Shown: positions 7 to 26,512 of the stretch, piece after piece
Layout of the letters: every line of letters starts with the position of its first letter
How positions within the stretch are numbered: the first letter of the stretch is position 1
NCBI GenBank assembly: GCA_004299275.1
Contig: SCSU01000049.1
Location: forward strand, 1 to 33,112
Length of the DNA: 33,112 bases
Direction: 5' to 3'
Origin: Patescibacteria group bacterium
Lineage (GTDB): Bacteria; Patescibacteriota; Patescibacteriia; 2-12-FULL-57-11
The notes under the pieces: model-generated
Database searches by the model: none
What the model was told of the DNA's origin: nothing
Seen by the model: only the letters and a program-made list of their open reading frames with translations
Translations under genes and position numbers: made by a program

Positions 7-582
7 GTGTTTCATACACCGCGAACCATGCCCGCAAATACTCGGATTGTCCCATCAATCAGCTACGTTTCATGGTTGGTCACCAACCAAAATGTGGCGT
101 ATATCCCTTATATGAAAAAAGCAGGCGCACTGCAGTTGCGGAGAAAAAGCGGGAAAGTGATTTTGACCGTTTTCTGCAAAAATCTCGCGGCGGGATTGGG
201 TGTGAAACCAGGTTTTGGCCTTCGAACTCTGCATTTCGGGACTAAACTGCGAGGCTACAATATTCAGAAGGGACAGGGGTACGGTTGGGACGGCCGTGAT
301 TACATTAGGGCAAAACGAAAAGGCAAAAACTTTTGGGTGATGACTATTCCAATCCGTGATAATGACCGACGACGGTCTGCGAGGCGCTTTATTAAAGGCA
401 ATTGTTATATCCGGACGCATCATAATGAAATTTATTATTTTGACCTCAGCAAATGGGTGATTGACCCGTCCAAGGCGAACGTAAGCGATCGTCACGGCGG
501 ACGTATTATCGAGATTGATTTTGAAAAAAATTCCATCTCTAATTCGCGCGAATGGTGGAATAGTTTAAAATACTATTCATGA
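7..582 (+). CDS. hypothetical protein (alternative ATG start at 28)
   Basis: 191-aa ORF overlapping the ATG of the next gene by ATGA; no family recognised. Contains palindrome copy 1 near its 3' end (ISNSREWW). Confidence 0.6.
   Translation: MFHTPRTMPANTRIVPSISYVSWLVTNQNVAYIPYMKKAGALQLRRKSGKVILTVFCKNLAAGLGVKPGFGLRTLHFGTKLRGYNIQKGQGYGWDGRDYIRAKRKGKNFWVMTIPIRDNDRRRSARRFIKGNCYIRTHHNEIYYFDLSKWVIDPSKANVSDRHGGRIIEIDFEKNSISNSREWWNSLKYYS
542..553. repeat. ATTCGCGCGAAT palindrome copy 1 (SNSREW)
   Basis: Context ATTCCATCTCTAATTCGCGCGAATGGTGGAAT, with ATTCCA/TGGAAT outer arms. Confidence 0.95.
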
Positions 583-854
583 AAAGGCTTGAAAAAACAT
601 TTAAGGCGTTCGCCAACCGCCGACGGCTGGCAATTATAACACTGTTAAAAAAGTGCAAGGAACTGACCGTCTCTGAGATTGCCGAGAAAATCAAACTATC
701 CTTTAAGGCCACATCAAAACATTTGAATTTGTTGGCCAACTCTGATGTTCTTGAAAAAGAACAACGCAGTCTCGAAATGTTTTATCGTCTTAATCCCGAA
801 GCTGATTCTACAATTCATCACTTGGTTAAAGCTGTCTCTAATTCGCGCGAATAG
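579..854 (+). CDS. ArsR-like winged-helix transcriptional regulator
   Basis: KTFKAFANRRRLAIITLLKKCKELTVSEIAEKIKLSFKATSKHLNLLANSDVLEKEQRS matches the ArsR-type HTH pattern; C-terminus ends in the palindrome-encoded SNSRE. Confidence 0.85.
   Translation: MKRLEKTFKAFANRRRLAIITLLKKCKELTVSEIAEKIKLSFKATSKHLNLLANSDVLEKEQRSLEMFYRLNPEADSTIHHLVKAVSNSRE
841..852. repeat. ATTCGCGCGAAT palindrome copy 2 (SNSRE-stop)
   Basis: Context GTCTCTAATTCGCGCGAATAGG at the 3' end of the ArsR gene. Confidence 0.95.
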
Positions 855-936
855 GCGAGTGGTTCAAAGGATGGATGCATGGTGATTATTATTCTTATGT
901 TATACTGAGGCACTAAACAGCCACTTCCATATTTGT

Positions 937-1488
937 ATGAGTTTAACGATCATCGGCATCTCTGGCTCGCTCAGAAAGGATTCCTGGAACACCAAACTCC
1001 TTAAGGCCGCGGTTCGGTTTTGTCCGCCGGAAGCAAAAATTGATATTCTTGATTGGTCAAAAGTTCCCGTTTACAACGGCGATGATGAGGCCAATATGCC
1101 TGCGCCGGTCTTGGAAGCAAAAAATAAAATCAGGGCGGCCGATGCCGTGCTTTTTGTGACGCCGGAATACAACTACAGCGTTCCCGGCTCGCTCAAGAAC
1201 GTGATTGACTGGTGTTCGCGGCCGTACGGTGACAACGCCTGGCAGGGGAAGCCAGTGGCGCTCATGGGCGCCTCGCCCGGTAATTTTGGCACCTTGCGCG
1301 CCCAGATGGCTCTGCGTCAGACTTTTACTTTCTCCGACATGCAGCCGGTGATGAGCCCCGAGGTTTTTGTCGGCCACTGCGCGGAAAAATTCGATGCTCG
1401 CGGCGAATTTACCGACGAAAAAGGCAGGGAACTGGTAACCGAACTGCTGGCGAATCTTGTCGCTCTGACCCAAAAACTAATAGGTTGA
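937..1488 (+). CDS. NADPH-dependent FMN reductase family protein
   Basis: GISGSLRKDSWNTKLL flavin-binding motif and PEYNYSVPGSLKNVIDW signature. Confidence 0.9.
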   Translation: MSLTIIGISGSLRKDSWNTKLLKAAVRFCPPEAKIDILDWSKVPVYNGDDEANMPAPVLEAKNKIRAADAVLFVTPEYNYSVPGSLKNVIDWCSRPYGDNAWQGKPVALMGASPGNFGTLRAQMALRQTFTFSDMQPVMSPEVFVGHCAEKFDARGEFTDEKGRELVTELLANLVALTQKLIG

Positions 1489-1542
1489 ACCGAATACGGC
1501 CTTGCCGGCCGGGCGCAGATTGCGTAGACTGACACCGTTTTT

Positions 1543-3354
1543 ATGGCTATGGACAATCGGGGCGGAAAAAAGAGTTTTATATTCACTGTTGACGAGTGGC
1601 TGCGCGCTTTGCCGCGAAAGCTTTTTCGTCCGGGGCCAAAAGGCCGCGTCCGTCTTTTAGCGTTTTGCGTTCTTTTGCTCGGCCTCATCGCCGGCGCTTA
1701 CGCCGCGCCGTGGTACTGGAATCGCGGGGCGGAATGGCTTCGCGCCACGGTCAAGATTCCCGCGCCCCTACTGCCTGTGCCGCCCTATCGTTTAGGTCTT
1801 GACCTCCAGGGTGGCGCGCATTTGGTCTACGAGGCGGATATGTCCGGCATCCCGGAGCGCGACCGCGGCGACGCGCTTGGGGGCGTGCGCGACGTAATTG
1901 AGCGACGAGTCAACGCTTTCGGCGTTTCCGAGCCGCTGGTGCAGACGAGCATGAGCGGCGGTAAATCTCGCGTGATTGTGGAGCTCGCCGGCATTAAAAA
2001 CGTCAAAGACGCCATCAAGGAAATCGGGGAGACGCCGATATTGGAATTTAAGGAGGAGTCCGGTGAGCCGTCGCGAGGTTTGACCGAACAAGAAAAAAAG
2101 GATTTGGAAAAATTTAACGCCGACGCTCTGGCCAAAGCCAAAGATATTGCCAAGCAAGCCCTCGCTACCGCCGCGAGCTCCACCGCTTTTGCCGACTTGG
2201 CGAAAAAGTTCAGCGAAGACCCGGGTTCCAAAGACCAGGGCGGCGACCTCGGCTATTTTACGCGCGGCGCGATGGTCAAGGAATTTGAAGCGGCGGTTTT
2301 TGACAAGTTAAAAGTTAATGAAATCACCAGAGAGCCGGTCAAAACCGTGTTTGGTTATCACGTCATTCAAAAAACCGGCGAGCGTGAGACCGAACAGGAT
2401 GGCAAAAAAGTCCGTGAGGCATCGGCTCGCCACATCTTGATTCGCACCAAGTCGGAGCGCGACGTCGTGCCGCTCGAGCAGTGGAAGGGGACCGGGCTCA
2501 CCGGCAAGCAGCTCAAACGCGCTTCGGTGCAGTTTGACCCAAATACCGGCGAACCGAACGTCTCCCTGCAATTTAACAGCGAAGGCGCGGAGCTTTTCTC
2601 CCAGCTGACCGAGCGGAATGTCGGCAAACCAGTCGCAATTTTTTTGGACGGCCGGATAATTTCGTCGCCGACGGTTAACGAAAAAATTTCCGGCGGCCAG
2701 GCGGTCATTACCGGCCGCTTTACCGTAGTCGAGTCCAAAAAATTGGCTCAACGGCTCAACGCCGGCGCCCTGCCCGTGCCCATCAATCTGCTTTCGCAAA
2801 AAACAGTCGGCGCGACCTTGGGCGAAGTTTCACTCAATCAGTCGCTCTTTGCCGGCCTGATCGGCATTTTGGCGGTGGCGCTGTTTATGATTATTTTTTA
2901 CCGCTTCCCGGGACTGCTCGCCACCTTCGCGCTGCTCATCTACACGGCGCTGGCCTTGGCAATTTTTAAACTCGTCGGCGTAACGATGACGCTGGCCGGT
3001 ATCGCCGGTTTTATCCTTTCGGTCGGTATGGCCGTTGACGCCAACATTCTGATTTTTGAACGAACGAAGGAGGAGATCCGCCGCGGTCGGAGTGTCGGCT
3101 CGGCTCTTGACGAGGGTTTTAGCCGCGCCTGGAACTCCATCCGCGATTCCAACGTCTCTTCGCTTATCACCTGCGCGATTCTCTATTGGTTCGGCACCTC
3201 CATCGTCCGCGGCTTCGCGCTGACTTTGGCTATCGGCATTTTGATGTCAATGTTTTCCGCGATTACCATCACCCGCACTTTCCTCAAACTCACCATGGGC
3301 GGCTGGGCGGAAAAGCATTTATGGTGGTTTGGAGCAAAAAGAGAAATTGTCTGA
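1543..3354 (+). CDS. secD: protein translocase subunit SecD with internal parvulin-like (PpiC/rotamase) segment
   Basis: [47 protein letters not shown]; inserted [24 protein letters not shown]...[10 protein letters not shown] and ARHILIRT. Confidence 0.95.
2053..2478 (+). other. parvulin-like PPIase insertion within SecD (approx. residues 171-312)
   Basis: [49 protein letters not shown] matches the parvulin core; ARHILIRT, normally the first strand, follows the core. Confidence 0.8.
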
Positions 3355-3360
3355 TTAATT

Positions 3361-4275
3361 ATGATTAACATTATCGGCAAAAAGAAAATTTGGTTTGGAG
3401 TCTCCGGCGCCCTGCTCGCCGTTTCGCTAGCGGCGTTGATCCTTTGGGGGCTCAAGCTCGGTATTGACTTTACCGGCGGCTCAATTTTGGAATTGCACTT
3501 CCTCGCCGGCCGTCCGGAAAACGTAAGAATTTCCGAGGTGCTGAAAGAGCAGGGGATCGAAGGCGCCGCAATCCAGCCGGTTGAAGAAAGCGATTTACTG
3601 ATTCGCACCAAAGCGCTCTCCGAACCTGAGCATCAAAAAATCGTCGCCGCGCTCCATGAGTCCTTTAAAAACTCGGACAATCATAAAGTTTTGGAAGAGA
3701 AAGGTTTTGAATCAGTCGGCCCGACCATCGGCGCCGAGCTCAAAAGCAAGGCAATCTTGGCGCTGGTTTTGGTGCTCCTCGCGATTATTGCCTACATCGC
3801 TTTCGCCTTTCGCAAAGTTTCGGAGCCGGTGGCGTCCTGGAAGTACGGCGTCTGCGCCGTGGCGGCCCTCTTCCACGACGTGCTGATACCCACAGGCGTT
3901 TTTGCCCTGCTCGGAAAATTTTTGGGCTACGAGGTTGATACGCTCTTTGTTACGGCTATTCTGACCGTGCTGGGCTTTTCGGTGCACGACACCATCGTGG
4001 TCTTTGACCGCATTCGCGAAAATTTAATCAAACACACGGCCAAGACCTTTGAGGAAACCGTGAACCTCTCGGTCAACGAGACCATCACCCGTTCCATCAA
4101 TACCTCGCTCACGGTTTTGCTGGTCTTACTTTCGGTTTATTTTTTCGGCGGGGCCTCCACGCGCAATTTTGTCCTGGTGCTCATCCTCGGCATCGTTTTC
4201 GGCACCTACTCCTCGATTTTTATCGCCAGCCCGCTTTTAGTCGCCTGGCACAACCGCCAAAAACGCGGTAAATAA
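3361..4275 (+). CDS. secF: protein translocase subunit SecF
   Basis: GIDFTGGSILELHF, VLGFSVHDTIVVFDRIREN; directly downstream of secD. Confidence 0.95.
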   Translation: MINIIGKKKIWFGVSGALLAVSLAALILWGLKLGIDFTGGSILELHFLAGRPENVRISEVLKEQGIEGAAIQPVEESDLLIRTKALSEPEHQKIVAALHESFKNSDNHKVLEEKGFESVGPTIGAELKSKAILALVLVLLAIIAYIAFAFRKVSEPVASWKYGVCAVAALFHDVLIPTGVFALLGKFLGYEVDTLFVTAILTVLGFSVHDTIVVFDRIRENLIKHTAKTFEETVNLSVNETITRSINTSLTVLLVLLSVYFFGGASTRNFVLVLILGIVFGTYSSIFIASPLLVAWHNRQKRGK

Positions 4276-4294
4276 CGAATTAATTGCGATATTG

Positions 4295-4326
4295 CAAGAT
4301 TGGTTCTCCGCGGGGGACCAATCTTG
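4295..4326 (+). terminator. hairpin, probable transcription terminator after secDF
   Basis: CAAGATTGG TTCTCC GC GGGGGA CCAATCTTG followed by TTTAT; stem extends with G-U pairs. Confidence 0.65.
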
Positions 4327-4366
4327 TTTATATCAGAGCGGTTTTTTGCTATACTTTAATGCGTTT

Positions 4367-5821
4367 ATGCCCACTATCACCATTGATACCACGATCTTCC
4401 AGCAAATTTTCAACGCCACCGACCCGATTGTGGCGGGTTGGCTTATTTTTAAGGCCGGCGGCTGGATTCCCGCGCTGATTGTGCTCATTAAAGGCCTCTC
4501 CTGGGTCTGGCTTAACGAACGGCAGGGAATTTTTATTTCCCAACAGAAAAAAGTTTTTTTGGCTATTGACATCCCCAAGCAGAACGAACAGCTCCCCAAA
4601 GCCGTGGAGAATATTTTTTCCCACTTGCTGGGCGCCTATTCCACGTCGACCAAAAAAGAGCGTTGGATTGACGGCAAGGTCGGCGCGATTTTCAGTTTTG
4701 AAATTGTTTCCATTGAAGGTTACATCCAATTCGTTGTAATGAGCTGGGAAAAGTATCGCGATGTGCTGGAGGCGCTAATTTACGCTCAATATCCCGAAGC
4801 GGAGATAACTGAAATCGAGGACTACACCCAATTCGCCCCGCAAAAATGGCCAGACGACGAATACCTGATGTTTGCCACTGAGTTTGTACCCAAGAAAGGC
4901 AATTTTTATCCGATAAAAACTTACCCCGAGTTTGAGGAAAAATTGGCCGGCGAATTCAAAGACCCGATGGCCGGGCTTTTGGAGTCGCTCGCCAAGCTCC
5001 AGCCCGGCGAGCAGATTTGGCTGCAACTTTTGGTGCAGGTTGGCCCCCAAGATTGGATTAAGGGAGCGGAAAAATTGGTCAAAAAACTTATCGGCGCCAA
5101 AATGCCGCAGGCAGGACCGTCATTGCTGCAGCGAGCCATGGACATGCCGATTGAGGCCCTGGCGCTCGCGTCCGCCTCGCTTAGCCCGGCCGCGGTGCCG
5201 GCAAAAAAGGATCAGGAGGCCCGTTCCCAGATGCTCCATCTCTCGCCCGGCGAGCGTATCGTAGTGGAGGCAGTGGAGCGTAAAATTGCGAAGATTGGAC
5301 ATAACACTAAAATTCGTTTTTTATACATCGCGCCAAAAAAATCCGCGCGCACCGGCACGGCCATCGCTTTTGTCCGCGGCGCTCTGCTTCAGTTTACTAC
5401 TCACGATTTGAACAGTTTGGGCTTCAACGGACTCCTGACCACCAAACGCGATTATTTTTGGCAGACCAACAGTCTTTGGTATTATCTTTCGGCGACTTTT
5501 TATCGGACGGTCAACGAGCGGATGCGGATAAACTTTCGTGGTTATAAAAATCGGAGCTTGTGGACCGGCGGCAAAACTTTTGTTTTTAACACCGAGGAGC
5601 TCGCGACTTTTTGGCACTTCCCCGTGTTGCAGGTCAAGGCGCCGCTGGTCAAAAAGACCGAGGCTAAACGCGGCGAGCCGCCGTCGGGGCTGCCGGTTAT
5701 GGGCGGCTTGGGATTCCGTTTCGGCCCGCCGTCGGCCGGCGGCGCCGCCGCCGCGCCGGTGGGGGAGCCGAGCAGCGCCACGCCAGCTGGCGGGCCGCCG
5801 TCTAATCTGCCAATTGCTTGA
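4367..5821 (+). CDS. conserved membrane-anchored hypothetical protein upstream of the conjugation-type ATPase
   Basis: ORF track starts at TTG 4292 inside the terminator hairpin; MPTITIDTTIFQQIF at 4367 is the more likely start. N-terminal hydrophobic segment (WLIFKAGGWIPALIVLIKGLSWVWL), then a large soluble domain and Pro/Gly/Ala-rich tail. Confidence 0.8.
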   Translation: MPTITIDTTIFQQIFNATDPIVAGWLIFKAGGWIPALIVLIKGLSWVWLNERQGIFISQQKKVFLAIDIPKQNEQLPKAVENIFSHLLGAYSTSTKKERWIDGKVGAIFSFEIVSIEGYIQFVVMSWEKYRDVLEALIYAQYPEAEITEIEDYTQFAPQKWPDDEYLMFATEFVPKKGNFYPIKTYPEFEEKLAGEFKDPMAGLLESLAKLQPGEQIWLQLLVQVGPQDWIKGAEKLVKKLIGAKMPQAGPSLLQRAMDMPIEALALASASLSPAAVPAKKDQEARSQMLHLSPGERIVVEAVERKIAKIGHNTKIRFLYIAPKKSARTGTAIAFVRGALLQFTTHDLNSLGFNGLLTTKRDYFWQTNSLWYYLSATFYRTVNERMRINFRGYKNRSLWTGGKTFVFNTEELATFWHFPVLQVKAPLVKKTEAKRGEPPSGLPVMGGLGFRFGPPSAGGAAAAPVGEPSSATPAGGPPSNLPIA

Positions 5822-5824
5822 TTT

Positions 5825-7456
5825 ATGTCTTCTTTTTACGACCACGAACACGAGGACGAAATTATTTTTTTCGCCCAAACCAATTTTCGAAACCAGAACC
5901 GGCGTTTCGGAATCAAGACCGACGACCGACGCCGGCATTTTTACGTGCTCGGTAAGACCGGCATGGGCAAGACGACCTTGCTCGAGAACATGGTGATTTC
6001 CGACATCAACGCCGGCCACGGCGTCGGCGTGGTGGACCCTCATGGCGACTTTGCCGAAAAACTTCTGAACTTTATTCCCTCGAGCCGCGTCAACGATGTC
6101 GTCTACTTTAATCCCGCGGATTTTGATTACCCGATCGGTTTTAACGTGCTCGAAGCGGTGGATGACCGGCACAAGCATCTCGTGTCCTCGGGACTCATGG
6201 GCGTGTTCAAGAAAATTTGGCCGGACGTCTGGAGCGCCCGGATGGAGCACATCTTAAACAACTGCATCTTGGCCCTGCTTGACTACCCGGGCTCGACGCT
6301 TTTGGGCATTAACCGCATTTTGACCGATAAGGAGTACCGCAAGCGCGTCGTCTCCAAAATTAAAGACCCGGTGGTCAAGCAGTTCTGGATTGACGAGTAC
6401 GCGCGCTGGGAAGACCGTTTTAGGAACGAGGCCATCGCGCCGATACAAAACAAGGTCGGCCAGTTCCTCTCCGCTTCTATTATCCGCAACATCGTGGCGC
6501 AGGTTAAATCTACGATTAATCCGCGCGAAATAATGGATGGTGGCAAAATTTTTATCATGAATTTAGCCAAAGGGCGGATTGGCGAGGACTCCTCGCGGCT
6601 TTTGGGCGGGATGCTCATCACCAAAATCCAGCTCGCGGCCATGGAGCGCGTGGACGTCCCCGAGGCCGAACGCCGGGACTACTACCTTTACGTGGATGAA
6701 TTTCAAAACTTCGCCACGCAGAGCTTCGCCAATATTTTGTCCGAAGCGCGCAAATACCACCTGAACTTGATTATCGCCCATCAATACATAGAACAGCTGG
6801 ACGAGGACTACGTCCGTCCGGCAGTGTTCGGCAACGTCGGGACGATTATGACTTTCCGCGTCGGCGGCAAAGACGCTGAATTTCTGGAACAGGAATTTAC
6901 ACCGCAGTTTGTGATTGAGGATTTAGTGAATCTCGGGAAATACGACGTTTATCTGAAGCTGATGATTGACGGCGTGGCCTCAACGCCGTTTTCCGCCCGC
7001 ACTCTGCCGCCGATTTCCCAGCCGACCGGCAACGAGGATAAAGTGATAAAAGTTTCGCGCGAAAGGTATAGCCAGCCGCGCGCGGTGATTGAGGAAAAGA
7101 TTTTGCGCTGGGCCGGGTTTGAGGAGCCGGCGGCGGATGAGCATCCCGCGCCGCCGCGCGCCGTCGCGCCTGCCGCCCCAAGAGCGGCAGTTGTCCCGCC
7201 GGTCAGCGGGGCGCCAGCAGGCAAGCCGGCGCCCAGGCCGTCAGAGCCGCCGCGCTCAGCGCGGGGGAAAGGTAAAATTTCCGTTGTGGTAAACTGTTCT
7301 AACTGCGGCAAGGAGACGGCGGTCGGCTTTAAACCCGACCCCAACCGGCCTTTCTATTGCGACGAATGTTTTAAAAAAGTCAAAGCCGAACGCGAGCGGG
7401 CGCGCCAGGCTTCCTCCGAGGTCAAAAAATCGGAAGAAACGCCGGCGCCGGTTTGA
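5825..7456 (+). CDS. HerA/VirB4/TraG-like ATPase (type IV secretion/conjugation coupling type) with C-terminal zinc ribbon
   Basis: Walker A LGKTGMGKTTLLEN, VVDPHGDFAEKLL, Walker B-like YYLYVDEFQNF, IIAHQYIEQL; C-terminal CSNCGKETAVGFKPDPNRPFYCDEC. Confidence 0.88.
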   Translation: MSSFYDHEHEDEIIFFAQTNFRNQNRRFGIKTDDRRRHFYVLGKTGMGKTTLLENMVISDINAGHGVGVVDPHGDFAEKLLNFIPSSRVNDVVYFNPADFDYPIGFNVLEAVDDRHKHLVSSGLMGVFKKIWPDVWSARMEHILNNCILALLDYPGSTLLGINRILTDKEYRKRVVSKIKDPVVKQFWIDEYARWEDRFRNEAIAPIQNKVGQFLSASIIRNIVAQVKSTINPREIMDGGKIFIMNLAKGRIGEDSSRLLGGMLITKIQLAAMERVDVPEAERRDYYLYVDEFQNFATQSFANILSEARKYHLNLIIAHQYIEQLDEDYVRPAVFGNVGTIMTFRVGGKDAEFLEQEFTPQFVIEDLVNLGKYDVYLKLMIDGVASTPFSARTLPPISQPTGNEDKVIKVSRERYSQPRAVIEEKILRWAGFEEPAADEHPAPPRAVAPAAPRAAVVPPVSGAPAGKPAPRPSEPPRSARGKGKISVVVNCSNCGKETAVGFKPDPNRPFYCDECFKKVKAERERARQASSEVKKSEETPAPV

Positions 7457-7488
7457 GTGCGGCAAATAATACTTAATCCATCCAAAAT

Positions 7489-9858
7489 ATGTTCCTTCGC
7501 CAACGTCCGGCAAAAAGCGGATTTTCTTTTTCTCGCCGCGGTACGGTCTCAGCCAAGACAACTGTCTTGGACAAGCTAGCTAAAATATTCCTTTTACTAG
7601 CCGCCTTTTTGGGAATTTTCGCCGTGAGCCCCTGGGCCGCGGACGTTCACCAGTTCCCAAAGTTTTCTACTTTTACCCTGTTCGCAATTCTGGGAGCGTT
7701 TTTTTGGCTGTTGGGGCGGGTGCGAACCAAGGATTTTTCGTTTTATGAATTTCCGGGCTGGCAGGCGCTCGCGGCGGTTGTAGGCATTGCTCTGCTCTCC
7801 GCGCTTTTCTCCGGCAACCCGGGCCTGGCCATCTTGGGCAACCCGGCCGGCGTTGGCCTGTCTTTTGTCGGTTTGGCGGCTTTATACCTTTTTATATTCA
7901 GCGGCAGGCAGTATTTGCAAAACCCGAACGGGCTCCGACGTTTGCGAGCTGGTTTGGCCTGGTGTGTTGCCATTGCCTTCCTGTTTTTCGCAATCAGAAC
8001 CTTTGTGCCCTTGCCGGTTTTTTTCGGCCGGCTGGGCCTGTCCATTTTCTCCCGTTTGCCGTTGGAAATGGCGGCAGTGGCTGCGGCCATGGCCGTTCTC
8101 TCGCTCGCCGTTCTCTCCACCAATGTTTTTACGCCGCTAAAAACGGCGTTGTGGTCCGGCCTCGGAGTGCTCGCGCTCGTGCTGGTGGTGCTAATCGGTT
8201 CCCCGGCCGCCTGGGCGGGGCTGCTCCTCGGCTCTCTGCTCACACTCGCCGCGACTGTGAGCCGCGGCAGATGGCGCGGCGTCTGGTCCGCAGTCGGCGC
8301 CCTGCTTGTCCTCGCGTCTTTGCCCTTTGCCTTTTTCGGCACGCCGCGGGCCTTGCGCCTGGCCTTGCCTATTGAAAATACGCTTAACGTCAACGAGTCG
8401 TGGAGCATCACCAAAAATGTCCTTTACCGCGACGCGAAGCAGTTTTTGCTGGGCACTGGTTTTGGCGGTTACCCCGTGGCCTTCGCGGCGTATCGTCCGG
8501 CGGAATTGAATTTTTCATCGGCTTTTGGCGCCACGCTCCTCGCTCCGGCCGGCGTGTTTTATCTGATGCTCGTTGAGGGGGGCGTTCTAATGTTTATCCC
8601 TTTGCTGATTTTCATCGCCCTGACGCTCGTCTCGGTTTTCCGCGTCTGGAACCGGCGTCCGGCCGAGGGACCCCGGAGCCGGATTAAAGCCGCTTTAGGC
8701 CGCGGCGGCGAGAGCCAATTTCAATTCGGCGATGTTTGGCCGTTTATCGTCGCCTTTCTGGCGTTGCGCGCGGCCACTTTTTTCAGCGTGCCGTCGTTTT
8801 CAATTACGGTTCTGATGATTGTTTTGCTGACCCTTTACTTCGCTGGCTCAGCCGGTTTTTTGGGCGTAGCCGAACCAAGCGCTTCCTACGCCGCGAAATT
8901 ATTGGCAAAGCCGCGCGTCCGGCTGGCCAAAACAATTACCGCCGCAGTCCTTCTTGTTCTTTTTCTGTTTTTTTGGGGCCAGCAGACAATCGCCGAGGCC
9001 TATTTTGGACAAGCCATCAGGGCCTACGCTCAACGGGATTTGACGGCGGCGGAACAGCTGGCGCGAACGGCACAGTCGCTTAACGGAGGAGACGCCCGTT
9101 TCGCGCTGGGGCTGGCGCAAGTGCTCGCGGAACGCGCGTCGGCGGAGCTAAAAAATGCTGCTCAAACCGCGGCCGCCGTTGCGGCGCTCTCCCAAGCCGC
9201 CGCCTTCAAAGGTCAGGGCGCTGATTACTGGATTGCTCTTGCGGCCGCGGCGCGCGGACCGTCGGCAACTAACGAACAGGCCAAAAAAATTATGAATGAA
9301 AGCGCTGAGCGGGCCGAGGCGGCCGTGCCCGGGAATCCGGCTCTGCGTTTGGCCGTCGGCGACCTCTACGCCGCGAGCGGAGATTACGCTAACGCGATTG
9401 TTCGTTATCAAGCGGCGATACTTTTAAAAGCGGATTATTTGGCGGCCTACTTCCGCGCCGCCGACGTGGCCCTTAAGGCCGGCGATACGAATCGGGCTCA
9501 AGGTTTCGCGCTCACCGCCGTGCAGATTAATCCGGCGAACGCCGACGCCCTGACTTTGTTCGTCAACGTTTCGCTTACTAGACGCGCGCCGGGCGACGAG
9601 ACTGCCGCCGCCGCGGCGCTGGAGAGCTTGGCGGTGGTTCAGCCCTCAAATACCGCCGCTCTGGCTATCCTTGGCCAGCTTTATGAAAAACTGGGCCAGC
9701 TCACCGAAGCGCGGCGAGTTTTTGAACGTCTTAACCAGTTGGCACCGGAGACGCAGGGGCTCGGCCAAAAATTACAGGAGCTCAACGCGGCGATCGCCGC
9801 CGCGGCCTCGAGCACGCCGGCGGAAGCTCCTAAGGAAAAAACAGGGACTAAAAATTAG
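7489..9858 (+). CDS. polytopic membrane protein with O-antigen ligase/polymerase-like N-terminus and C-terminal TPR repeats
   Basis: Multiple hydrophobic helices, then NPALRLAVGDLYAASGDYANAIVRYQAAILLKADYLAAYFRAADVALKAGDTNRAQGFALTAVQINP (TPR). Start codon uncertain. Confidence 0.75.
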   Translation: MFLRQRPAKSGFSFSRRGTVSAKTTVLDKLAKIFLLLAAFLGIFAVSPWAADVHQFPKFSTFTLFAILGAFFWLLGRVRTKDFSFYEFPGWQALAAVVGIALLSALFSGNPGLAILGNPAGVGLSFVGLAALYLFIFSGRQYLQNPNGLRRLRAGLAWCVAIAFLFFAIRTFVPLPVFFGRLGLSIFSRLPLEMAAVAAAMAVLSLAVLSTNVFTPLKTALWSGLGVLALVLVVLIGSPAAWAGLLLGSLLTLAATVSRGRWRGVWSAVGALLVLASLPFAFFGTPRALRLALPIENTLNVNESWSITKNVLYRDAKQFLLGTGFGGYPVAFAAYRPAELNFSSAFGATLLAPAGVFYLMLVEGGVLMFIPLLIFIALTLVSVFRVWNRRPAEGPRSRIKAALGRGGESQFQFGDVWPFIVAFLALRAATFFSVPSFSITVLMIVLLTLYFAGSAGFLGVAEPSASYAAKLLAKPRVRLAKTITAAVLLVLFLFFWGQQTIAEAYFGQAIRAYAQRDLTAAEQLARTAQSLNGGDARFALGLAQVLAERASAELKNAAQTAAAVAALSQAAAFKGQGADYWIALAAAARGPSATNEQAKKIMNESAERAEAAVPGNPALRLAVGDLYAASGDYANAIVRYQAAILLKADYLAAYFRAADVALKAGDTNRAQGFALTAVQINPANADALTLFVNVSLTRRAPGDETAAAAALESLAVVQPSNTAALAILGQLYEKLGQLTEARRVFERLNQLAPETQGLGQKLQELNAAIAAAASSTPAEAPKEKTGTKN

Positions 9859-17185: not shown

Positions 17186-17299
17186 ATGAAAGTGCGTTCG
17201 TCCATCCGTAAAATCTGCAAAGAGTGCAAGCTGGTGCGCCGCAAACGGCGGCTTTTTGTCATCTGTAAAACACCCAAGCATAAACAAAGACAAGGATAA
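17186..17299 (+). CDS. rpmJ: 50S ribosomal protein L36
   Basis: Below the ORF-track length cut-off; hand translation [37 protein letters not shown], with C-x2-C...C...H zinc pattern, directly before rpsM. Confidence 0.95.
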
Positions 17300-17301
17300 C
17301 T

Positions 17302-17685: not shown

Positions 17686-17689
17686 TTTT

Positions 17690-18139: not shown

Positions 18140-18144
18140 TTAAT

Positions 18145-18750: not shown

Positions 18751-18786
18751 TATTTAAAACGCCCCTTGGGCTCACTTTTCTCCTCT

Positions 18787-19560
18787 ATGGAGGACATTCT
18801 CTACCCTTCAAAAATCGAATTATTGCCCGGTGCTTCGCGGCACGAGGCCGTTTTGGTCGCTGAACCATTTTTTCAGGGCTATGGCATGACCGTTGGCAGC
18901 GCCTTGCGTCGCGTGCTGCTCTCCTCGCTCCCTGGCGCGGCGATAACGGCCGTTAAGATTAAGGGCGTTCAGCACGAGTTTTCCACTCTGCCGCAGGTCA
19001 AGGAGGATGTGCTGGAGATTATCCTCAATCTCAAAATGGTTCGATTAAAATCTTTTTCGGCCGAGCCGGTGCGTCTGCGCCTCGCGGTCAAAGGCGAAAA
19101 AGAGGTTACAGCCGGAGACATTCAAGCGACCTCTGACGTGGAAATTGCCAATCCCAAATTGCATCTGGCGACGCTCACCGACAAAAATGCCGAGCTGGAG
19201 ATGGAGGTCTTGGTTGAACGCGGCCGCGGCTATCTGCCGACTGAAGAGCGCGGCAAAGAAAAAAAAGAACTTGGTTTGATTGCGGTGGATGCCTTATTTT
19301 CGCCGGTGATTAACGTCGGTATCCGCGTGGAAAACGTCCGCGTCGGCGAAATTACCAACTACGACAAGCTGATTCTGACCGTGGAAACCGACGGCACGAT
19401 AACCGCCAAACAGGCGATTGAGGAGTCGTCGCGCGTGCTCATTAATCACTTTAATCTGTTTGGCTCCCTGACCGATTTGAAGGGCGAAGTTGCGGAGGAG
19501 GGAGAAGCTCCCGCCAAGCCCAAGCGCGGCCGGAAAAAGAAAGCCGAAGAGGAAAAGTAA
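18787..19560 (+). CDS. rpoA: RNA polymerase alpha subunit, apparently without alpha-CTD
   Basis: GYGMTVGSALRRVLLSSLPGAAITAVKIKGVQHEFSTLPQVKEDVLEIILNLK; ends in a Lys/Arg/Glu-rich tail after the NTD. ATG at 18787 preferred over 18766. Confidence 0.95.
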   Translation: MEDILYPSKIELLPGASRHEAVLVAEPFFQGYGMTVGSALRRVLLSSLPGAAITAVKIKGVQHEFSTLPQVKEDVLEIILNLKMVRLKSFSAEPVRLRLAVKGEKEVTAGDIQATSDVEIANPKLHLATLTDKNAELEMEVLVERGRGYLPTEERGKEKKELGLIAVDALFSPVINVGIRVENVRVGEITNYDKLILTVETDGTITAKQAIEESSRVLINHFNLFGSLTDLKGEVAEEGEAPAKPKRGRKKKAEEEK

Positions 19561-19564
19561 AGTT

Positions 19565-19915
19565 ATGCGTCATCGGAAAAAGACCGTAATCTTGGGCAGG
19601 GAAAAGGGGCCGCGGACCGCGCTGCTCAGGAATTTGGCTACCAGTGTGGTGCTTTTTGAACGAGTGCAGACGACCCGGGCCAAGGCCAAAGCCGTCCAGC
19701 CGCTGGTAGAGCGTCTGGTGACGGTTGCTAAAAACAAAAACGCCTCCGCCCGGCGCGAACTAAACAAAATTTTGACCACTCGCGGGGCGGTGCTAAAGGT
19801 AACGGGGGAGCTTGCCCCGCGTTACGAAAAACGCGCCGGCGGCTACACCCGCATCACCCGCTTGGGTTTTAGAAAAGGCGACGCGGCGGAAATTGTCCAG
19901 TTGGAATTTGTTTAA
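19565..19915 (+). CDS. rplQ: 50S ribosomal protein L17
   Basis: MRHRKKTVILGREKGPRTALLRNLATSVVLFERVQTTRAKAKAVQPLVERLVTVAK. Confidence 0.95.
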   Translation: MRHRKKTVILGREKGPRTALLRNLATSVVLFERVQTTRAKAKAVQPLVERLVTVAKNKNASARRELNKILTTRGAVLKVTGELAPRYEKRAGGYTRITRLGFRKGDAAEIVQLEFV

Positions 19916-19918
19916 ATT

Positions 19919-20281
19919 ATGAAGACAGCGGTCCAGCGAAAAGTTGAGGTGATTGACGCCGCGGATGCTCCGCTCGGCCGTTTGGCGAGCCGCGCGGCGG
20001 TTTTGCTTATCGGTAAACATAAGGCCAATTACGCGCCCAATGCTGATGCCGGTGATTTTGTTCATATAAAAAATGCCGCCAAAATAAAATTGACCGGCAA
20101 AAAGCGTCAGCAAAAAGTTTACAAGTGGTATACCGGTTATCAAGGCGGTCTCAGGACTGAGCCGCTCAAAAGCGTGATAGCTAAAAGCCCCGCGGAAGTC
20201 ATAAAAAAAGCGGTCAAGAACATGCTGCCTAAAAACACTTTTCAGACGCCGCGTCTGCGCCGTTTGCGGATTACTGATTAA
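19919..20281 (+). CDS. rplM: 50S ribosomal protein L13
   Basis: VIDAADAPLGRLASRAAVLLIGKHKANYAPNADAGDFVHIKNAAKIKLTGKK; KNMLPKN. Confidence 0.95.
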   Translation: MKTAVQRKVEVIDAADAPLGRLASRAAVLLIGKHKANYAPNADAGDFVHIKNAAKIKLTGKKRQQKVYKWYTGYQGGLRTEPLKSVIAKSPAEVIKKAVKNMLPKNTFQTPRLRRLRITD

Positions 20282-20285
20282 TTAT

Positions 20286-20822
20286 ATGGAACGAAAGTCT
20301 GCGTCCAAAAAAACAGCCGCGGCCAAGCCCGCGCCAAAGAAGACGGCCTTGAAAGCCACAATCAAAAAAACGCCGCCCAAAGCGGCGACCGCGCCGAGCC
20401 CGGAGCTGGAGGTTAAGGAACAGGGTCCGAAGCGCGAGTTTGTCAAAGCGCTTGGCCGGCGAAAGGAGGCCACGGCCGAAATCCGGCTTTTTCCCGCCGG
20501 CGCCGGTGAGATTACGGTAAATAAAAAGCCGCTCTCCAGTTATTTTCCGCAATTTGAATTGCGCGAGGCGATTCTTTCTCCAATTCGGCTGGCCGGCCGA
20601 GAGGGGAAGATTGACGCATCGGCGCGTCTGCGCGGCGGCGGCTCGCGCGGGCAAGCCGAGGCAATGCGTCTCGGAATTGCGCGAGCGCTGGTTAAATTGG
20701 ATGAGCAGCTGCGTCGTTCAATGAAAAAAAGCGGATTTCTCACCAGAGACGCGCGCGTCAAGGAACGCAAGAAATACGGTTTGAAGAAAGCTCGCCGCGC
20801 GCCGCAGTGGGCAAAGCGCTAG
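20286..20822 (+). CDS. rpsI: 30S ribosomal protein S9 with N-terminal Lys/Ala/Pro-rich extension
   Basis: ALGRRKEATAEIRLFPAGAGEITVNKKPLSSYFP, AMRLGIARALVKLD, C-terminal KKYGLKKARRAPQWAKR. Confidence 0.95.
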   Translation: MERKSASKKTAAAKPAPKKTALKATIKKTPPKAATAPSPELEVKEQGPKREFVKALGRRKEATAEIRLFPAGAGEITVNKKPLSSYFPQFELREAILSPIRLAGREGKIDASARLRGGGSRGQAEAMRLGIARALVKLDEQLRRSMKKSGFLTRDARVKERKKYGLKKARRAPQWAKR

Positions 20823-20835
20823 CGAGAGTTGTATC

Positions 20836-20866
20836 AAGATCGGATCTCCCAAGGAGATCCGATCTT
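20836..20866 (+). terminator. perfect-stem hairpin after rpsI, probable terminator
   Basis: AAGATCGGATCTCC-CAA-GGAGATCCGATCTT, 14-bp perfect stem. Confidence 0.75.
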
Positions 20867-20912
20867 TAAATTATTTGTAAAATTCCGTTTTTTTGAGATA
20901 ATAACACTGATT

Positions 20913-22418
20913 ATGCCCCTGCACAGCACGGAAAAGGTGGTTAAAAATACTATTATTTACACTGCCGCCACCGTCGCCCAAAAAGCGATTTCTTTTATTT
21001 ATTTTTGGACTCTTTCGGCCAATCTCCGGCCCGCCGAATTGGGCGCTTATCTTTCGATGCTGGCTTTGGCCTCGCTATTTTCCATCGGCATGGATTTGGG
21101 ACTGACGCCGCTCCTGACCCGCGAGGCGGCCCAGCATGAGGAACAATCGTCAAAATTACTTCGCGCCACTTACGCCATAAAACTGCCTTTAGTTTTTTTG
21201 ACCACTCTTTTGCTCTGGCTGGCCGCTATTTTGTTTTTTGATCTGCTCGCGGCTGAAAAATTACTGCTCCTGGGAGCGACCTTGATTGTCGCAATTGACG
21301 CTTTTACCGCCGGCGCATACGCCATCCTCCGAGCGCGTCAGAACATTGTTATCGAAAGTCGCGCCATTCTTATTTTTCAGAGCACGGTGATGACCGGCGG
21401 CCTGCTCGCGCTCTTCCTCACCCGGAACATTGTTTTTATTATGGCCGCGCTCCTACTTGGTAGCATGGTCAACGCGGTTTATACCATCGGCAGCGCCCGG
21501 CGAATTGTCGGTGAAAAAATCACCCCGGCCTTTGATCGGCCAAGGATGCGACATTTGACTGCCCGCCTGCCGGCTTTTGCCGCGGCCGGCATCTTTACCA
21601 AAATCTACCAGCAGGCGGATGTCGTCCTGTTGCGCTTGCTCGCCAGCACCCACGCGGTCGGCCTCTACAGCATTCCGGCAAAAATCACCACCGCGCTCCA
21701 GACGCTCATCCCCGGCGCCTTTAGCGCGGCAATCTATCCCACCATGTCCAACTTCGCACGCGTTGACCGCGCGCGGTTGGCGGCGCTTTTCAGCTACACC
21801 TTTGGCTCGCTTTTCCTTCTGGCCTTGCCGCTTGGACTTTTCCTCGCGATGCTCACGCCCACTATCCTCGCCACTGTCTGGCCGCAATATCTGCCGGTCG
21901 CGCCGGCCATGCGGCTGATGCTCCTCGCGGTGCCGTTTCTCTTTTTGCCTTACGCTACCAGTTCGCTGCTTAATGCCGTCGGCCGCGAAAAAAGAAACTC
22001 GCTAAACCGCGCGGCGATGACGGCGATAAATGTCGGCGCCAATCTCCTGCTCATTCCGTTTTATCGTGAGTTTGGCGCGGCCATAGCTTTTTTTTCCGCC
22101 AACGCCCTGCTTTTAATTTTGGATTTGGCGGCTGTCCGGAGGGAATTTGCGCTTTGGAACGCGGACATTCGTCGTTTGACAATCGGTTCGGTCGTCTCCT
22201 GCCTGCCGGCGCTCATTGCGGCCTGGCTCGTGCTCGGGTTCGTCCAGAGTCGCGCGATCGGTCAGCAGGGACTGTTGGCGTTTGTGGAATTGAACGTCAT
22301 CTCCTTTGGCGCGGCGATGATTATCTATGTTATTTTCCTGGCGCTGACGCGGACGATTCGTCGTGCCGATGTCGCGGCTTTGCGTCAAATGATTAAACCC
22401 AAGACAGCCGGCCTATGA
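20913..22418 (+). CDS. oligosaccharide flippase / polysaccharide transporter (Wzx/MATE-like)
   Basis: VVKNTIIYTAATVAQKAISFIYFWTLSANLRPAELGAYLSMLALASLFSIGMDLGLTPLLTREAA; multi-TM; heads a glycosyltransferase cluster. ATG 20913 preferred over the ORF-track start in the terminator. Confidence 0.85.
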   Translation: MPLHSTEKVVKNTIIYTAATVAQKAISFIYFWTLSANLRPAELGAYLSMLALASLFSIGMDLGLTPLLTREAAQHEEQSSKLLRATYAIKLPLVFLTTLLLWLAAILFFDLLAAEKLLLLGATLIVAIDAFTAGAYAILRARQNIVIESRAILIFQSTVMTGGLLALFLTRNIVFIMAALLLGSMVNAVYTIGSARRIVGEKITPAFDRPRMRHLTARLPAFAAAGIFTKIYQQADVVLLRLLASTHAVGLYSIPAKITTALQTLIPGAFSAAIYPTMSNFARVDRARLAALFSYTFGSLFLLALPLGLFLAMLTPTILATVWPQYLPVAPAMRLMLLAVPFLFLPYATSSLLNAVGREKRNSLNRAAMTAINVGANLLLIPFYREFGAAIAFFSANALLLILDLAAVRREFALWNADIRRLTIGSVVSCLPALIAAWLVLGFVQSRAIGQQGLLAFVELNVISFGAAMIIYVIFLALTRTIRRADVAALRQMIKPKTAGL

Positions 22419-23479
22419 AATATTTGTTAGTAACTCCGGAATTTCCGCCGGACACCGGCGGCGTAGCGCGTTACCTCGGCGCGTTAGCGGCGGAAAAAGA
22501 TACGCGATTAGCAGTGGCTTCGCCTCATGGACCTATTTTATTTCGTCCGGATTGGAATTTTTGGCCGCGCTGGCTGCCGCTCCTCTGGCGTCTCCCGTCT
22601 CTAATTCGCGCGAATGGTTCCAAGGTGCTTATCATTTCCCATGTTCTGCCTTACGGCTATGCCGCGTTGCTCTCTGGTCTGCCCTATGTCGTGATTTGCC
22701 ATGGCTTGGATGTCGCCGCGCCGCGTCGACGCCCTTGGAAGCGGTTCTGGGCCGGAGTCGCGCTGCGGCGCGCTAGCTGTGTCGTCGTAAACAGTGAGGC
22801 GACTAAAAAAATTGTTCTGCGTTATGGTGTTCGGGAGTCGCGGCTCCGTGTCATTTATCCGCCACCTTCCTGGGATCCGGCAGAAGTAGGGGAGAGGGCC
22901 GAAACAAATCTGGCGGAGCGCTATAATCTTTTTGATAAAAAAGTGTTGTTGATTGCCGGACGATTAGTGCCGCGAAAGGGCGTTGATGTCGCGCTTCAGA
23001 TTATGCCCAAGGTTAAGGAGCGCTTTAGTGACGCGCGGCTCCTGATTGCCGGCGAAGGCCCAGAGCGTCCGCGCCTGGAACAACAGGCAGTCAATGTGGG
23101 GATAAAAGACAGCATTATTTTCCTCGGAAAAATTTCCGACGCCGAATTGCGCGATGCCTACTCGCTGGCCTACGCCGTTCTCTATCCTTCCCAAGAGTTG
23201 CCCGGGGACATTGAGGGCTTTGGCATCGGTGCGGCGGATGCCGGCCTCTTCAGCAAACCAGTGATCGCCAGTCGCACGGGAGGATTGCCCGAGGCAGTCA
23301 AAGATGGAGTAACTGGTCTGCTCGTGCCTCCGGACGCGCCAGGCGCGCTGTTAGAGGCCATTTTGGGCCTTTTAAGCAGCCCAGAAAGCGCGAAAACCCT
23401 AGGAGAAGGCGGCCGGCGGCTTGCGGCTCAAAGAACAAAAATTTCGTTCCGAAACGCCTTCTTCGAAGCATTGTTATGA
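22415..23479 (+). CDS. glycosyltransferase family 4 (GT-B)
   Basis: KKVLLIAGRLVPRKGVDVALQIMPKV, LLIAGEGPERPRLE, GFGIGAADAGLFSKPVIASRTGGLPEAVKDGVTGLLVPPDAP. Confidence 0.92.
   Translation: MKYLLVTPEFPPDTGGVARYLGALAAEKDTRLAVASPHGPILFRPDWNFWPRWLPLLWRLPSLIRANGSKVLIISHVLPYGYAALLSGLPYVVICHGLDVAAPRRRPWKRFWAGVALRRASCVVVNSEATKKIVLRYGVRESRLRVIYPPPSWDPAEVGERAETNLAERYNLFDKKVLLIAGRLVPRKGVDVALQIMPKVKERFSDARLLIAGEGPERPRLEQQAVNVGIKDSIIFLGKISDAELRDAYSLAYAVLYPSQELPGDIEGFGIGAADAGLFSKPVIASRTGGLPEAVKDGVTGLLVPPDAPGALLEAILGLLSSPESAKTLGEGGRRLAAQRTKISFRNAFFEALL
22604..22615. repeat. ATTCGCGCGAAT palindrome copy 3 (in GT4 gene, SLIRANGSK)
   Basis: Context GTCTCTAATTCGCGCGAATGGTTCCAAGG. Confidence 0.95.
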
Positions 23480-24174
23480 CGATTTCAATTATTATTCCGG
23501 CGCATAACGCCAGCCGGACAATCGTCAAAACCATCAAATCAATTTTGGCGCAGAGCAAACTGCCGGAAGAGATTATTGTTGTTGACGACGGCTCTGCTGA
23601 TAACCTTCAATCGTATCTATCGCTAATTCGCGCGAATGTGCGCTTGGAGAGGATCGCCCACGCCGGCGCGGCGGCGGCGCGGAACGCCGGCGCGCGGCAG
23701 GCCAAGGGTGATGCCTTATTTTTTTGCGACGCTGATATTGAACTTTTTCCCACTGCCTTGCAAAAATTAGAAAAAGCGCTGGCGGATAATCCTAACGCCG
23801 TTTTTGCTTACTCGGCTTTTGAGTGGGGCGGCAGAATTTTTGGCAATCGTGATTTTGACCCCGAGGAAGTCCGCCGCAACAATTACATCTCCACCATGAG
23901 TTTAATCAGCCGTTCCGCCTTCCCCGGTTTTGACGAAACCCTGCCGAGGTTCCAGGACTGGGATTTGTGGCTCACTATCATTGAACGCGGCGGCAACGGC
24001 GCGCGCGTGCCGGAAGTTCTTTTTCGCGTGCTGGAAGAAGGAAAGATGAGCCGCCGCGGCGGTCTCTCGCGCCTCCGCGCCACCGCGGCAGTCAGGAAAA
24101 AACACCGTCTCTCGTGGCGGATTTCCGACTTTTGGCTGGCGTTTAAGGAATCGCTACGCGCCGGTCGCCTATGA
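23476..24174 (+). CDS. glycosyltransferase family 2
   Basis: TISIIIPAHNASRTIVKTIKSILAQSKLPEEIIVVDDGSAD, AAAARNAGARQAKGDALFFCDADIE. Confidence 0.92.
   Translation: MTISIIIPAHNASRTIVKTIKSILAQSKLPEEIIVVDDGSADNLQSYLSLIRANVRLERIAHAGAAAARNAGARQAKGDALFFCDADIELFPTALQKLEKALADNPNAVFAYSAFEWGGRIFGNRDFDPEEVRRNNYISTMSLISRSAFPGFDETLPRFQDWDLWLTIIERGGNGARVPEVLFRVLEEGKMSRRGGLSRLRATAAVRKKHRLSWRISDFWLAFKESLRAGRL
23626..23637. repeat. ATTCGCGCGAAT palindrome copy 4 (in GT2 gene, SLIRANVR)
   Basis: Context TATCGCTAATTCGCGCGAATGTGCGC. Confidence 0.95.
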
Positions 24175-25043
24175 ACCCGGATTTGACTATTGTTATTGTC
24201 AATTACAAGACCAAAGAATTGGTCAGACGTTTGTTGGCCTCAATTTTCGCGCGAGTGAAAGGGGTTACCTTTGAGGTCTATCTCGTGGATAACGCTTCGG
24301 CTGACGGAGCGGTGGAAATGGCGGCAAGGGAATTCCTTCAAGTAAAAGTCATCGCCAATGAACAAAATTTCGGCTTTGCCCAAGCCAACAATCAGGCGCT
24401 GCGGCTCGCCGCGGGACGTCATATTCTTCTTCTTAATCCGGACACCGAACTCATTGAGGACACGCCAACAGCTTTGGTTCGATTTGCCGACTCTCACCAG
24501 AATGCCGGCGTTGTCGGTTGTAAAATTTTGAATTCTGACCGTAGTAGGCAAAAGTCCGTGCTGGCCTTTCCCACGGTTTGCTCACAGGCGTTTATCATGC
24601 TCAAATTGCACCATCTCTTGCCATGGCTTCCCTGCCTACGGCGTTATTTCCAAAATGACTTTGACTACTCGAAGACAGCGCAAGTTGACCAAGTGATGGG
24701 TTCAGTGTTTTTAATCACCCGCGCCGCACTTGAACGAGTTGGCTTGTTTGATGAAAGATTTTTCCTCTGGTTTGAAGAAGTGGACTATTGCAAGATGGTA
24801 AAAAACGCCGGTTTGGAAGTTTGTTATACGCCGGAGACATCAGCCGTCCACCATGGAGGCCAGAGCTTCGCCCAAGTTTTTGCTCCGCGGCGACAGCGGC
24901 AATTCAACGATTCTTTGACTAAATATTTTCGCAAGCACCACGGCGTCGGCGCTTGGCTTTTGCTTAAGGCGCTCCAACCGTTCTCAATAATTTTGGCTTT
25001 GATTGTCGGACTGCTCGGACTAAAACGCAAAAAATACGCATGA
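24171..25043 (+). CDS. glycosyltransferase family 2 (rhamnosyltransferase-like)
   Basis: LTIVIVNYKTKELVRRLLASIF, VYLVDNASADGAVEMA, NFGFAQANNQALRLAAGRHILLLNPDTEL, FDERFFLWFEEVDYC. Confidence 0.92.
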   Translation: MNPDLTIVIVNYKTKELVRRLLASIFARVKGVTFEVYLVDNASADGAVEMAAREFLQVKVIANEQNFGFAQANNQALRLAAGRHILLLNPDTELIEDTPTALVRFADSHQNAGVVGCKILNSDRSRQKSVLAFPTVCSQAFIMLKLHHLLPWLPCLRRYFQNDFDYSKTAQVDQVMGSVFLITRAALERVGLFDERFFLWFEEVDYCKMVKNAGLEVCYTPETSAVHHGGQSFAQVFAPRRQRQFNDSLTKYFRKHHGVGAWLLLKALQPFSIILALIVGLLGLKRKKYA

Positions 25044-26512
25044 GCAACCTTTCTTGGCGAACAGCATCGCTCGCATTGTTTGGAACGCTTGTCGTTTATC
25101 TAATTTCTTTTTTGGGCTCGCGAAATACTTTAGCAGAAATAATTTGGTTATCGGCCATCTTAATCATAACAGCGTTCGGCCGCTGGCGTTCGCTTATTTT
25201 TGTCACATCGCTCGTCGTCGTGGAACTGGTCGCTGGTTCGCTCGGCCGGCTATTTGCATTTCCTTCCGGTCTCTCGTTGCGAGAGGGGCTCTTCGCCATC
25301 GCGTTACTTGCCACCCTCTTACGGCTTTGGCGTAACCCGGATGAACTCGCCTATCTCCGCCAGCACATTCTCAAATGGCCTTTTCTTTTTTTGGCGGCAG
25401 TGATTATCTGGGGCATCCTCCGCGGTCTCACGCTGCACCCATTTCGGTTGGTCATTGCTGACGCCAATGCCTACGGATATTTTTTGCTTTTGCCAGCGTT
25501 TTTGCTCGCGTATCGCGAAGAAAAAAACAGGGAGCTGCTGTTTTCCACAATCTTGGGCGCGACGACGGCAGCAGCGCTGCTGACACTTTTTGAGCTCTAT
25601 ATTTTTACGCATGGATGGAATGAGCCGTTTCTAGGGGCACAGTACAAGTGGGTACGCGATTTTGGATTAGGGGAAATAACGCGCGCGCCCGGCGGTTTTT
25701 ACCGTGTTTTTTTTCAAGCGCATTTCTGGAATTTTATTGTCTTTATCTGGTCACCGGCGCTCATCGTCAGTCACCTTGGAAACATTCGCGCGAATGATTC
25801 CAAGGTTTGGTGGTTGTTTGTTCCGGCGGCGCTGTCTGCGGCGGCGCTGTTTGTCAGTTTTTCGCGCACTTTTTGGCTGGCCGCCGGACTGGCCGCTCTC
25901 CTAGGCCTTGCGATAGTGATCGCGCGTTCTGACCTGCGTGGCGCGGCCTTCCGTTACCTCGGCGCGCTCATCTTCATTTCCATCCTCGGAGTTGCCGTGC
26001 CCTTTGCCATTACTCGCTCGGTCGGCGGCGCGGCGTTCTCGCGAGCCGGAGCGCTTGCCGGCGAGGCGGCGGCTGACAGCCGGATGAATCTTTTGGCCGT
26101 CATGGCGCCGGTAATTAGAGAACATCCAATCCTCGGCTGGGGTTTTGGTAAGGAACTGACTTATATCACCAAAGACCCGCGCTTGCTCGCATATTTTCCC
26201 GACGGCCGTTACACCACTTATGCATTTGAATGGGGTTGGTTGGATTTCTGGCTCAAGATGGGGCTTGGGGGAATGATTGCCTTCCTAGCACTTGTTCTAA
26301 CATTGCTCCGAGGGCTCTGGCGGGGGATAGCGGTCGCGGATGATCGCTGGCTGTCTCTGGCTCTGTTTTTATCGCTCGTCGGCGTCTCTGTCGCGCACCT
26401 GTTTTCGCCATGGCTTAATCACCCGCTGGGTATTGGGCTCGTGCTTCTTATTGTTGCCTTGTGGCAAAAAACGAAATCGGATCCGTATATTAAAAAAGAC
26501 AGCTATTTCTAG
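25040..26512 (+). CDS. O-antigen ligase/polymerase-like membrane protein
   Basis: Multi-TM; VSFSRTFWLAAGLAALLGL and REHPILGWGFGKEL typical of the Wzy/WaaL family; last gene of the polysaccharide cluster. Confidence 0.82.
   Translation: MSNLSWRTASLALFGTLVVYLISFLGSRNTLAEIIWLSAILIITAFGRWRSLIFVTSLVVVELVAGSLGRLFAFPSGLSLREGLFAIALLATLLRLWRNPDELAYLRQHILKWPFLFLAAVIIWGILRGLTLHPFRLVIADANAYGYFLLLPAFLLAYREEKNRELLFSTILGATTAAALLTLFELYIFTHGWNEPFLGAQYKWVRDFGLGEITRAPGGFYRVFFQAHFWNFIVFIWSPALIVSHLGNIRANDSKVWWLFVPAALSAAALFVSFSRTFWLAAGLAALLGLAIVIARSDLRGAAFRYLGALIFISILGVAVPFAITRSVGGAAFSRAGALAGEAAADSRMNLLAVMAPVIREHPILGWGFGKELTYITKDPRLLAYFPDGRYTTYAFEWGWLDFWLKMGLGGMIAFLALVLTLLRGLWRGIAVADDRWLSLALFLSLVGVSVAHLFSPWLNHPLGIGLVLLIVALWQKTKSDPYIKKDSYF
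25784..25795. repeat. ATTCGCGCGAAT palindrome copy 5 with extended inverted flanks
   Basis: CCTTGGAAAC-ATTCGCGCGAAT-GATTCCAAGG; encodes NIRANDSK in frame. Confidence 0.95.

Follow-up and report, generated by a model that had tools for sequence, protein, structure and literature searches.

A stretch of 33,112 nucleotides from a Patescibacteria group bacterium (assembly GCA_004299275.1, contig SCSU01000049.1, positions 1 to 33,112 of the forward strand; in the following the window) carries five exact copies of the 12 bp palindrome ATTCGCGCGAAT, at 542-553, 841-852, 22604-22615, 23626-23637 and 25784-25795, and the question is what this element does. The original prediction, whose five positions all proved exact, had favoured a protein-coding palindromic element comparable to the Rickettsia palindromic elements (RPEs) and had mentioned a protein-binding site or an uptake signal as alternatives. 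It is the protein-binding alternative that our analysis strongly supports: ATTCGCGCGAAT is very likely the core of a putative operator of an ArsR/SmtB-type autorepressor subfamily, and a probable binder is encoded in the window itself.

The palindrome is exact and over-represented

Markov models of order 1-3 predict 0.009-0.018 copies of ATTCGCGCGAAT in the window and 0.26-0.55 copies in the organism's own genome assembly (1,000,965 bp, 73 contigs), compared to five and 11 observed copies, respectively. A reversed control pattern was absent genome-wide. This confirms that the five-copy observation is real and far above chance, as had been claimed from the window, and the earlier description of the flanks also matches the sequence. 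Allowing one mismatch yielded just four more sites genome-wide versus three for the control; since this is barely above the control, the core is exact and not a decaying repeat.

The symmetry exceeds the 12 bp, with arm complementarity above base composition out to approximately arm position 12, and the whole unit is about 32-36 bp long. Its general form is ATTC-N4-ATTC-N4-GAAT-N4-GAAT, and the centre is the invariant part of the site whereas the arms are variable. Among relatives a frequent consensus is AATCTCTA-core-AGGCGAATAG, and copies often occur in pairs; the usual place is intergenic and the copy number ranges from about 1 to 12 per genome. A phage origin of the palindrome was rejected, as the consensus had no exact match in viral contigs.

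An ArsR/SmtB-family gene lies between copies 1 and 2

Between the first two copies sits a regulator gene (579-854, + strand) that was absent from the first list of open reading frames (ORFs), whose size limit exceeds its length. The product of 91 amino acids is a winged-helix regulator of the ArsR/SmtB family with the recognition helix SFKATSKHL. It matches the subfamily profile with an E-value of 2.6e-34, and 579-851 scores above the curated cut-offs of both PF01022 (HTH_5; E 2e-8, 34.4 bits, cut-off 22) and NF033788 (metalloregulator ArsR/SmtB; E 1.7e-18, 66.2 bits, cut-off 55). Classical metal sensors of the ArsR/SmtB family bear a Cys-rich metal box in their alpha-3 region. The window protein lacks such a box, with ELTVSEIA at that place and one Cys in its entire length. 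An AlphaFold single-sequence model of the protein reached a predicted local distance difference test (pLDDT) score of 53 and was not used.

Operator-like site 1 (532-564, + strand; core 542-553, arms CCATCTCTA and GGTGGAATAGT) fits ATTC-N4-GAAT-N4-GAAT and has the same position relative to the ArsR-type gene as in relatives. Its core covers the 3'-terminal codons of ORF 7-582, and 25 nt separate the end of the core from the ATG at 579; this upstream ORF of 191 amino acids is without Pfam match. Operator-like site 2 (833-862, + strand; core 841-852, arms CTGTCTCTA and AGGCGAGTGG) overlaps the stop of the regulator gene, its core encoding the final codons (SNSRE) and the T of the TAG stop. The first gene after site 2 encodes an NADPH-dependent FMN reductase (937-1488, + strand; PF03358, E 2.9e-43), a putative target which may be controlled via this site.

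Palindrome and regulator subfamily co-occur across the class

Co-occurrence was analyzed in 381 genomes of the class, using a threshold of E<=1e-12 for the ArsR profile and Fisher tests that ignore kinship. The profile matched 26 genomes and the exact palindrome was found in 60: in 23 of the 26 ArsR genomes, but in only 37 of the 355 others (p ~1e-17). Among the 17 genomes with at least three copies, 15 have the ArsR (p 3e-18). The three ArsR genomes that lack the exact core carry the variant cores ATTCGTACGAAT, ATTCGTGCGAAT and ATTCTACCGAAT at the corresponding position beside the gene (loci L098, L096 and L088). None of the three relatives from the same family (G001-G003) was matched by the ArsR profile.

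Most copies in the relatives are intergenic, and in several families the gene between paired copies turned out, on reading, to be one and the same small ArsR gene. The idea of a cassette or integron, taken from the paired copies, was dropped because the gene between several pairs is this ArsR. The organism itself has further members of the subfamily: a second ArsR on contig C67 (35160-35414) likewise lies between copies, at 35080 and 35433, and a third (C51:5196-5450) has a GTTCGCGCGAAC palindrome upstream; for a fourth, near a contig end (C22:15886-16140), no site was found.

Operator-like sites bracket the regulator genes

A palindrome of the ATTC-N4-GAAT type stands on both sides of 67 of 96 ArsR-like genes, compared to 16 (4%) of the 403 control ORFs taken from these loci, and an upstream site is present in 73 of the 96. 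The predictions on bracketing were recorded before the phylum was searched; in the new set (E<=1e-18), 35 of 42 genes had palindromes on both sides, and among more distant ArsRs just 2 of 12. In 48 of the 67 bracketed genes the upstream and downstream cores are identical (shuffled mean 8.2, maximum 16), which is the pattern expected from a gene-specific protein.

A syntenic comparison with an empty site within one genus gave no result, as the neighbouring gene was absent from the sister genome. At locus L136 (G126:C2:95433 and 96568) the right flanks of two copies are near-identical up to a terminal T-run and A-run, which gives the impression of a duplicated segment of 40-50 bp.

Cores follow the recognition helix

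The centre of the core correlates with the recognition helix of the adjoining regulator. Helices of the type S[LF][KR][AV]TSKH go with a GCGC centre in 17 of 21 cases and never with GTAC (0/21), whereas SFRSTSKH goes with GTAC in 6 of 6 (Fisher 3.4e-6). In the portion tested after the prediction had been made, KATSKH was paired with GCGC in 5 of 6 cases, with none showing GTAC, and RSTSKH with GTAC in the single case (1/1). Smaller helix classes have centres of their own: SIKSASKN/SVKSASKN goes with GCCC/GGGC (3/3) and SHTATSKH with TTTCGCGCGAA[AT]. A Mantel test, in which ArsR identity was correlated with the core (r=0.36, p=0.0035) and with the arms (r=0.19, p=0.05), was superseded by these finer tests. 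Taken together, the data are suggestive of a helix/core code and do not prove one. One branch of the ArsR family has TTTCGCGCGAAA cores (L120, L149 and L152, also L224, L226-L228 and L230); L120 and L149 combine ATTCGCGCGAAT upstream with TTTCGCGCGAAA downstream.

This gene-specificity disfavours a mobile or selfish element, in which the palindrome-ArsR-palindrome unit or the palindrome alone would spread by recombination or transposition with the ArsR as cargo or helper. Such spread would fit the bracketing on both sides that persists even with convergent neighbours, the patchy distribution (26 of 381 genomes, with G001-G003 all lacking it), some non-ArsR genes that also lie between two copies and the hybrid arms in G000 and G126. 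Cores and arms that are specific for an ArsR gene and track its helix are, however, unexpected of a mobile repeat, and the internal copies in a GT2, a GT4 and a murI gene, described below, are not insertions. No recombinase was seen among the ORFs read beside the sites, a systematic search for recombinases not having been made. We consider a mobile element quite improbable.

An RNA hairpin or REP-like element, in which arm pairing would be under selection (as a terminator, mRNA stabiliser or 5' leader structure), is very improbable. In its favour, many sites are perfect palindromes of 28-34 bp with variable arms, complementarity of the arms is above composition to position 12 and T-runs follow some sites. 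Complementary arms may equally reflect a dimer that reads two equal half-sites, and selection for pairing predicts that the two half-sites of one site resemble each other more than those of different sites of the same gene. Half-sites of one site had a similarity of 0.61, those taken from the two sites of the same gene 0.59 and those of different genes 0.39; an excess within sites was absent (Wilcoxon p 0.87), despite a choice of sites that favoured complementarity. Because this excess is missing, gene-specific recognition by a protein suffices to account for the symmetry, with no need for RNA pairing. Moreover, the commonest form (TCTCTA / AGGCGAATAG) is asymmetric, the T-runs are inconsistent and the invariant centre would be the loop. 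REP/RAYT systems likewise consist of repeated palindromes of 20-40 bp that are mostly intergenic; in contrast to these, the element described here has variable arms, an invariant centre and an ArsR partner gene, REP tags and RAYT genes not having been searched for.

Copies inside coding sequences

Copies 3-5 are located within a cluster for glycan biosynthesis comprising a Wzx-like flippase (20829-22418), two glycosyltransferases (GT4 and GT2) and a gene for a large integral-membrane protein. All three are in frame and read as IRAN. Site 3 (22598-22626, + strand; core 22604-22615, arms TCTCTA and GGTTCCAAGGT) lies in the GT4 gene (22415-23479) and is read as SLIRANGSKV. Site 4 (23619-23648, + strand; core 23626-23637, arms ATCGCTA and GTGCGCTTGG) is found in the GT2 gene (23476-24174). 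Site 5 (25773-25806, + strand; core 25784-25795, arms ACCTTGGAAAC and GATTCCAAGGT), a near-perfect palindrome of 34 bp, belongs to the integral-membrane gene (25040-26512). The original prediction had placed all five copies inside ORFs; this applies to copies 3-5, whereas copy 1 stands at the end of ORF 7-582 and copy 2 at the end of the regulator gene.

The arms of the internal copies are of two types, GTGCGCTTG (copy 4 and C67:40413) and GGTTCC (copies 3 and 5), and the GTGCGCTTG type resembles the sites flanking the ArsR on C67. Copies 3-5 may be bound by the window ArsR or by a sister ArsR. Internal sites can be common to different genera: in the prmC genes of G175 and G191 (L164 940-1782 and L151 972-1838) the palindrome is found at an equivalent position and in the same frame. 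These copies read IRAN-x-S like copies 3 and 5 of the window, with different arms.

The in-frame reading as IRAN and a loop at copy 5 that is eight residues longer than in the closest homologue speak for an RPE-like protein-coding element, and like RPEs these palindromes do occur inside coding sequences. In alignments with homologues, however, no residues are added by copy 3, by copy 4 or by the one in murI on the organism's contig C50, so that three of the four internal copies compared are not insertions, and the region around copy 5 is indel-variable. The element is also much shorter than RPEs and tied to a regulator; copies 1 and 2 have operator positions around the ArsR gene and most copies elsewhere are intergenic. 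The coding-insertion idea is therefore hardly credible. The last alternative, a DNA uptake signal or a site that organises the chromosome without involvement of ArsR, is practically negligible: uptake sequences occur in hundreds of copies or more, and despite an exact, over-represented core in both coding and non-coding DNA each genome has just about 1-12 copies (this organism 11 in 1.0 Mb), their presence depends on one ArsR subfamily and the core changes with the helix.

Elsewhere in the window, gene 1543-3354 encodes a SecD-like protein with an apparent parvulin-type (PpiC) segment in its periplasmic part, and the same arrangement is seen in the relative G030 (L043 1334-3049), both read by eye.

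A putative autoregulatory operator

If the palindrome is an operator core, a dimer of the 579-854 protein would bind copy 542-553 ahead of its own start and repress its own synthesis, and copy 841-852 may control the next gene and/or complete the pair of sites around the regulator gene. Contacts to the GCGC-centred core would come from the KATSKH helix, and the arms would be recognised by other parts of the protein. In general, an ArsR dimer on the core would block transcription where its own gene and a small number of others begin; every regulator would maintain its own core and arm "dialect" at both ends of its gene, and extra copies elsewhere would form a small regulon. The computation shows what the gene is, that it co-occurs with the palindrome, that sites bracket it, that cores are gene-specific and that they correlate with the helix; from these patterns we infer that the protein binds and represses, how the dimer is arranged and what the second site is for. 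For Rv2034 it is established that an ArsR protein represses itself via a palindrome adjoining its start codon (PMC3338718).

The genes directly downstream of non-ArsR copies in G030, G115, G136, G156 and G352 include four Nudix hydrolases, a Maf and a Ham1-type NTPase, and the two copies on contig C39 of the organism itself are neighboured by NADAR-, THEP1- and inosine/xanthosine triphosphatase-like genes. These putative targets and neighbouring genes give hints of a role in nucleotide housekeeping.

Several observations weigh against an ArsR operator. Two genomes have the palindrome without an ArsR of the subfamily: G030 with ten copies, about eight of them typical, and G068 with three; only distant ArsRs without palindromes were found in both. 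For G030 (L035-L043), which has a stated completeness of 100%, a lost regulator, an assembly gap or a different binder come into consideration. The co-occurrence statistics take no account of phylogeny, and the ArsR tree, for which the helix was masked, offers just three well-supported independent helix/core pairs, all of them in the predicted direction or neutral. In L089, L091, L094, L106 and L120 the downstream palindrome precedes a convergent gene, and since several do so, the downstream site is not merely the operator of the next gene. Copies 3-5 partly differ in their arms and are intragenic, which is odd for an operator, and no ArsR with GGTTCC-type arms was found in the organism's own genome. 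Finally, no -35 hexamer is enriched ahead of the TCTCTA-type sites. An overlapping promoter with TCTAAT as -10 element was rejected, given the missing -35 enrichment and the unsupported promoter geometry.

A more far-reaching version of the operator model takes palindrome-ArsR-palindrome as a self-contained module, passed on as a whole by inheritance or exchange, with interchangeable orthogonal pairs of repressor and operator, and the copies in the glycan genes as intragenic control of surface polysaccharide production. We regard this as rather unlikely; if true, the regulator and both flanking operators would drift together.

Relation to known regulators and significance

The subfamily belongs to the same winged-helix family as the ArsR/SmtB autorepressors HlyU, CzrA, SmtB, BigR and Rv2034 according to Pfam, NCBIfam and PDB profile searches. 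The nearest solved relatives are HlyU, NolR, CzrA and SmtB, with HlyU as the best match (3jth, E 3.9e-15), and the recognition helix LSLKATSKHL aligns with LSQSALSQHL of HlyU. As in Rv2034, where the palindromic site lies just upstream of the regulator start (PMC3338718), an operator is predicted here at this position. In contrast to these autorepressors, a site is present at both ends of the gene, a family-wide ATTC-N4-GAAT frame is combined with a gene-specific centre and arms, and several paralogues with dialects of their own share one genome of 1 Mb. Among NCBIfam models, the window protein matches that of the SdpR-type autorepressors (NF033789) second best (E 1.7e-12), but the score is below the curated cut-off (47 versus 100 bits) and no SdpI-like partner was seen next to the gene.

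Literature searches found no prior description of the palindrome/ArsR arrangement and no regulon or operator for these very small bacteria, which are mostly uncultured and in which gene regulation is almost undescribed. The finding supplies approximately 96 natural regulator genes, most of them flanked by sites of their own, and the centre of the operator appears to be set by a few residues of the recognition helix. The DNA specificity of ArsR proteins thereby becomes directly testable by swaps of helix and operator, and the question is raised why the regulator gene would keep an operator at each end, irrespective of its neighbours.

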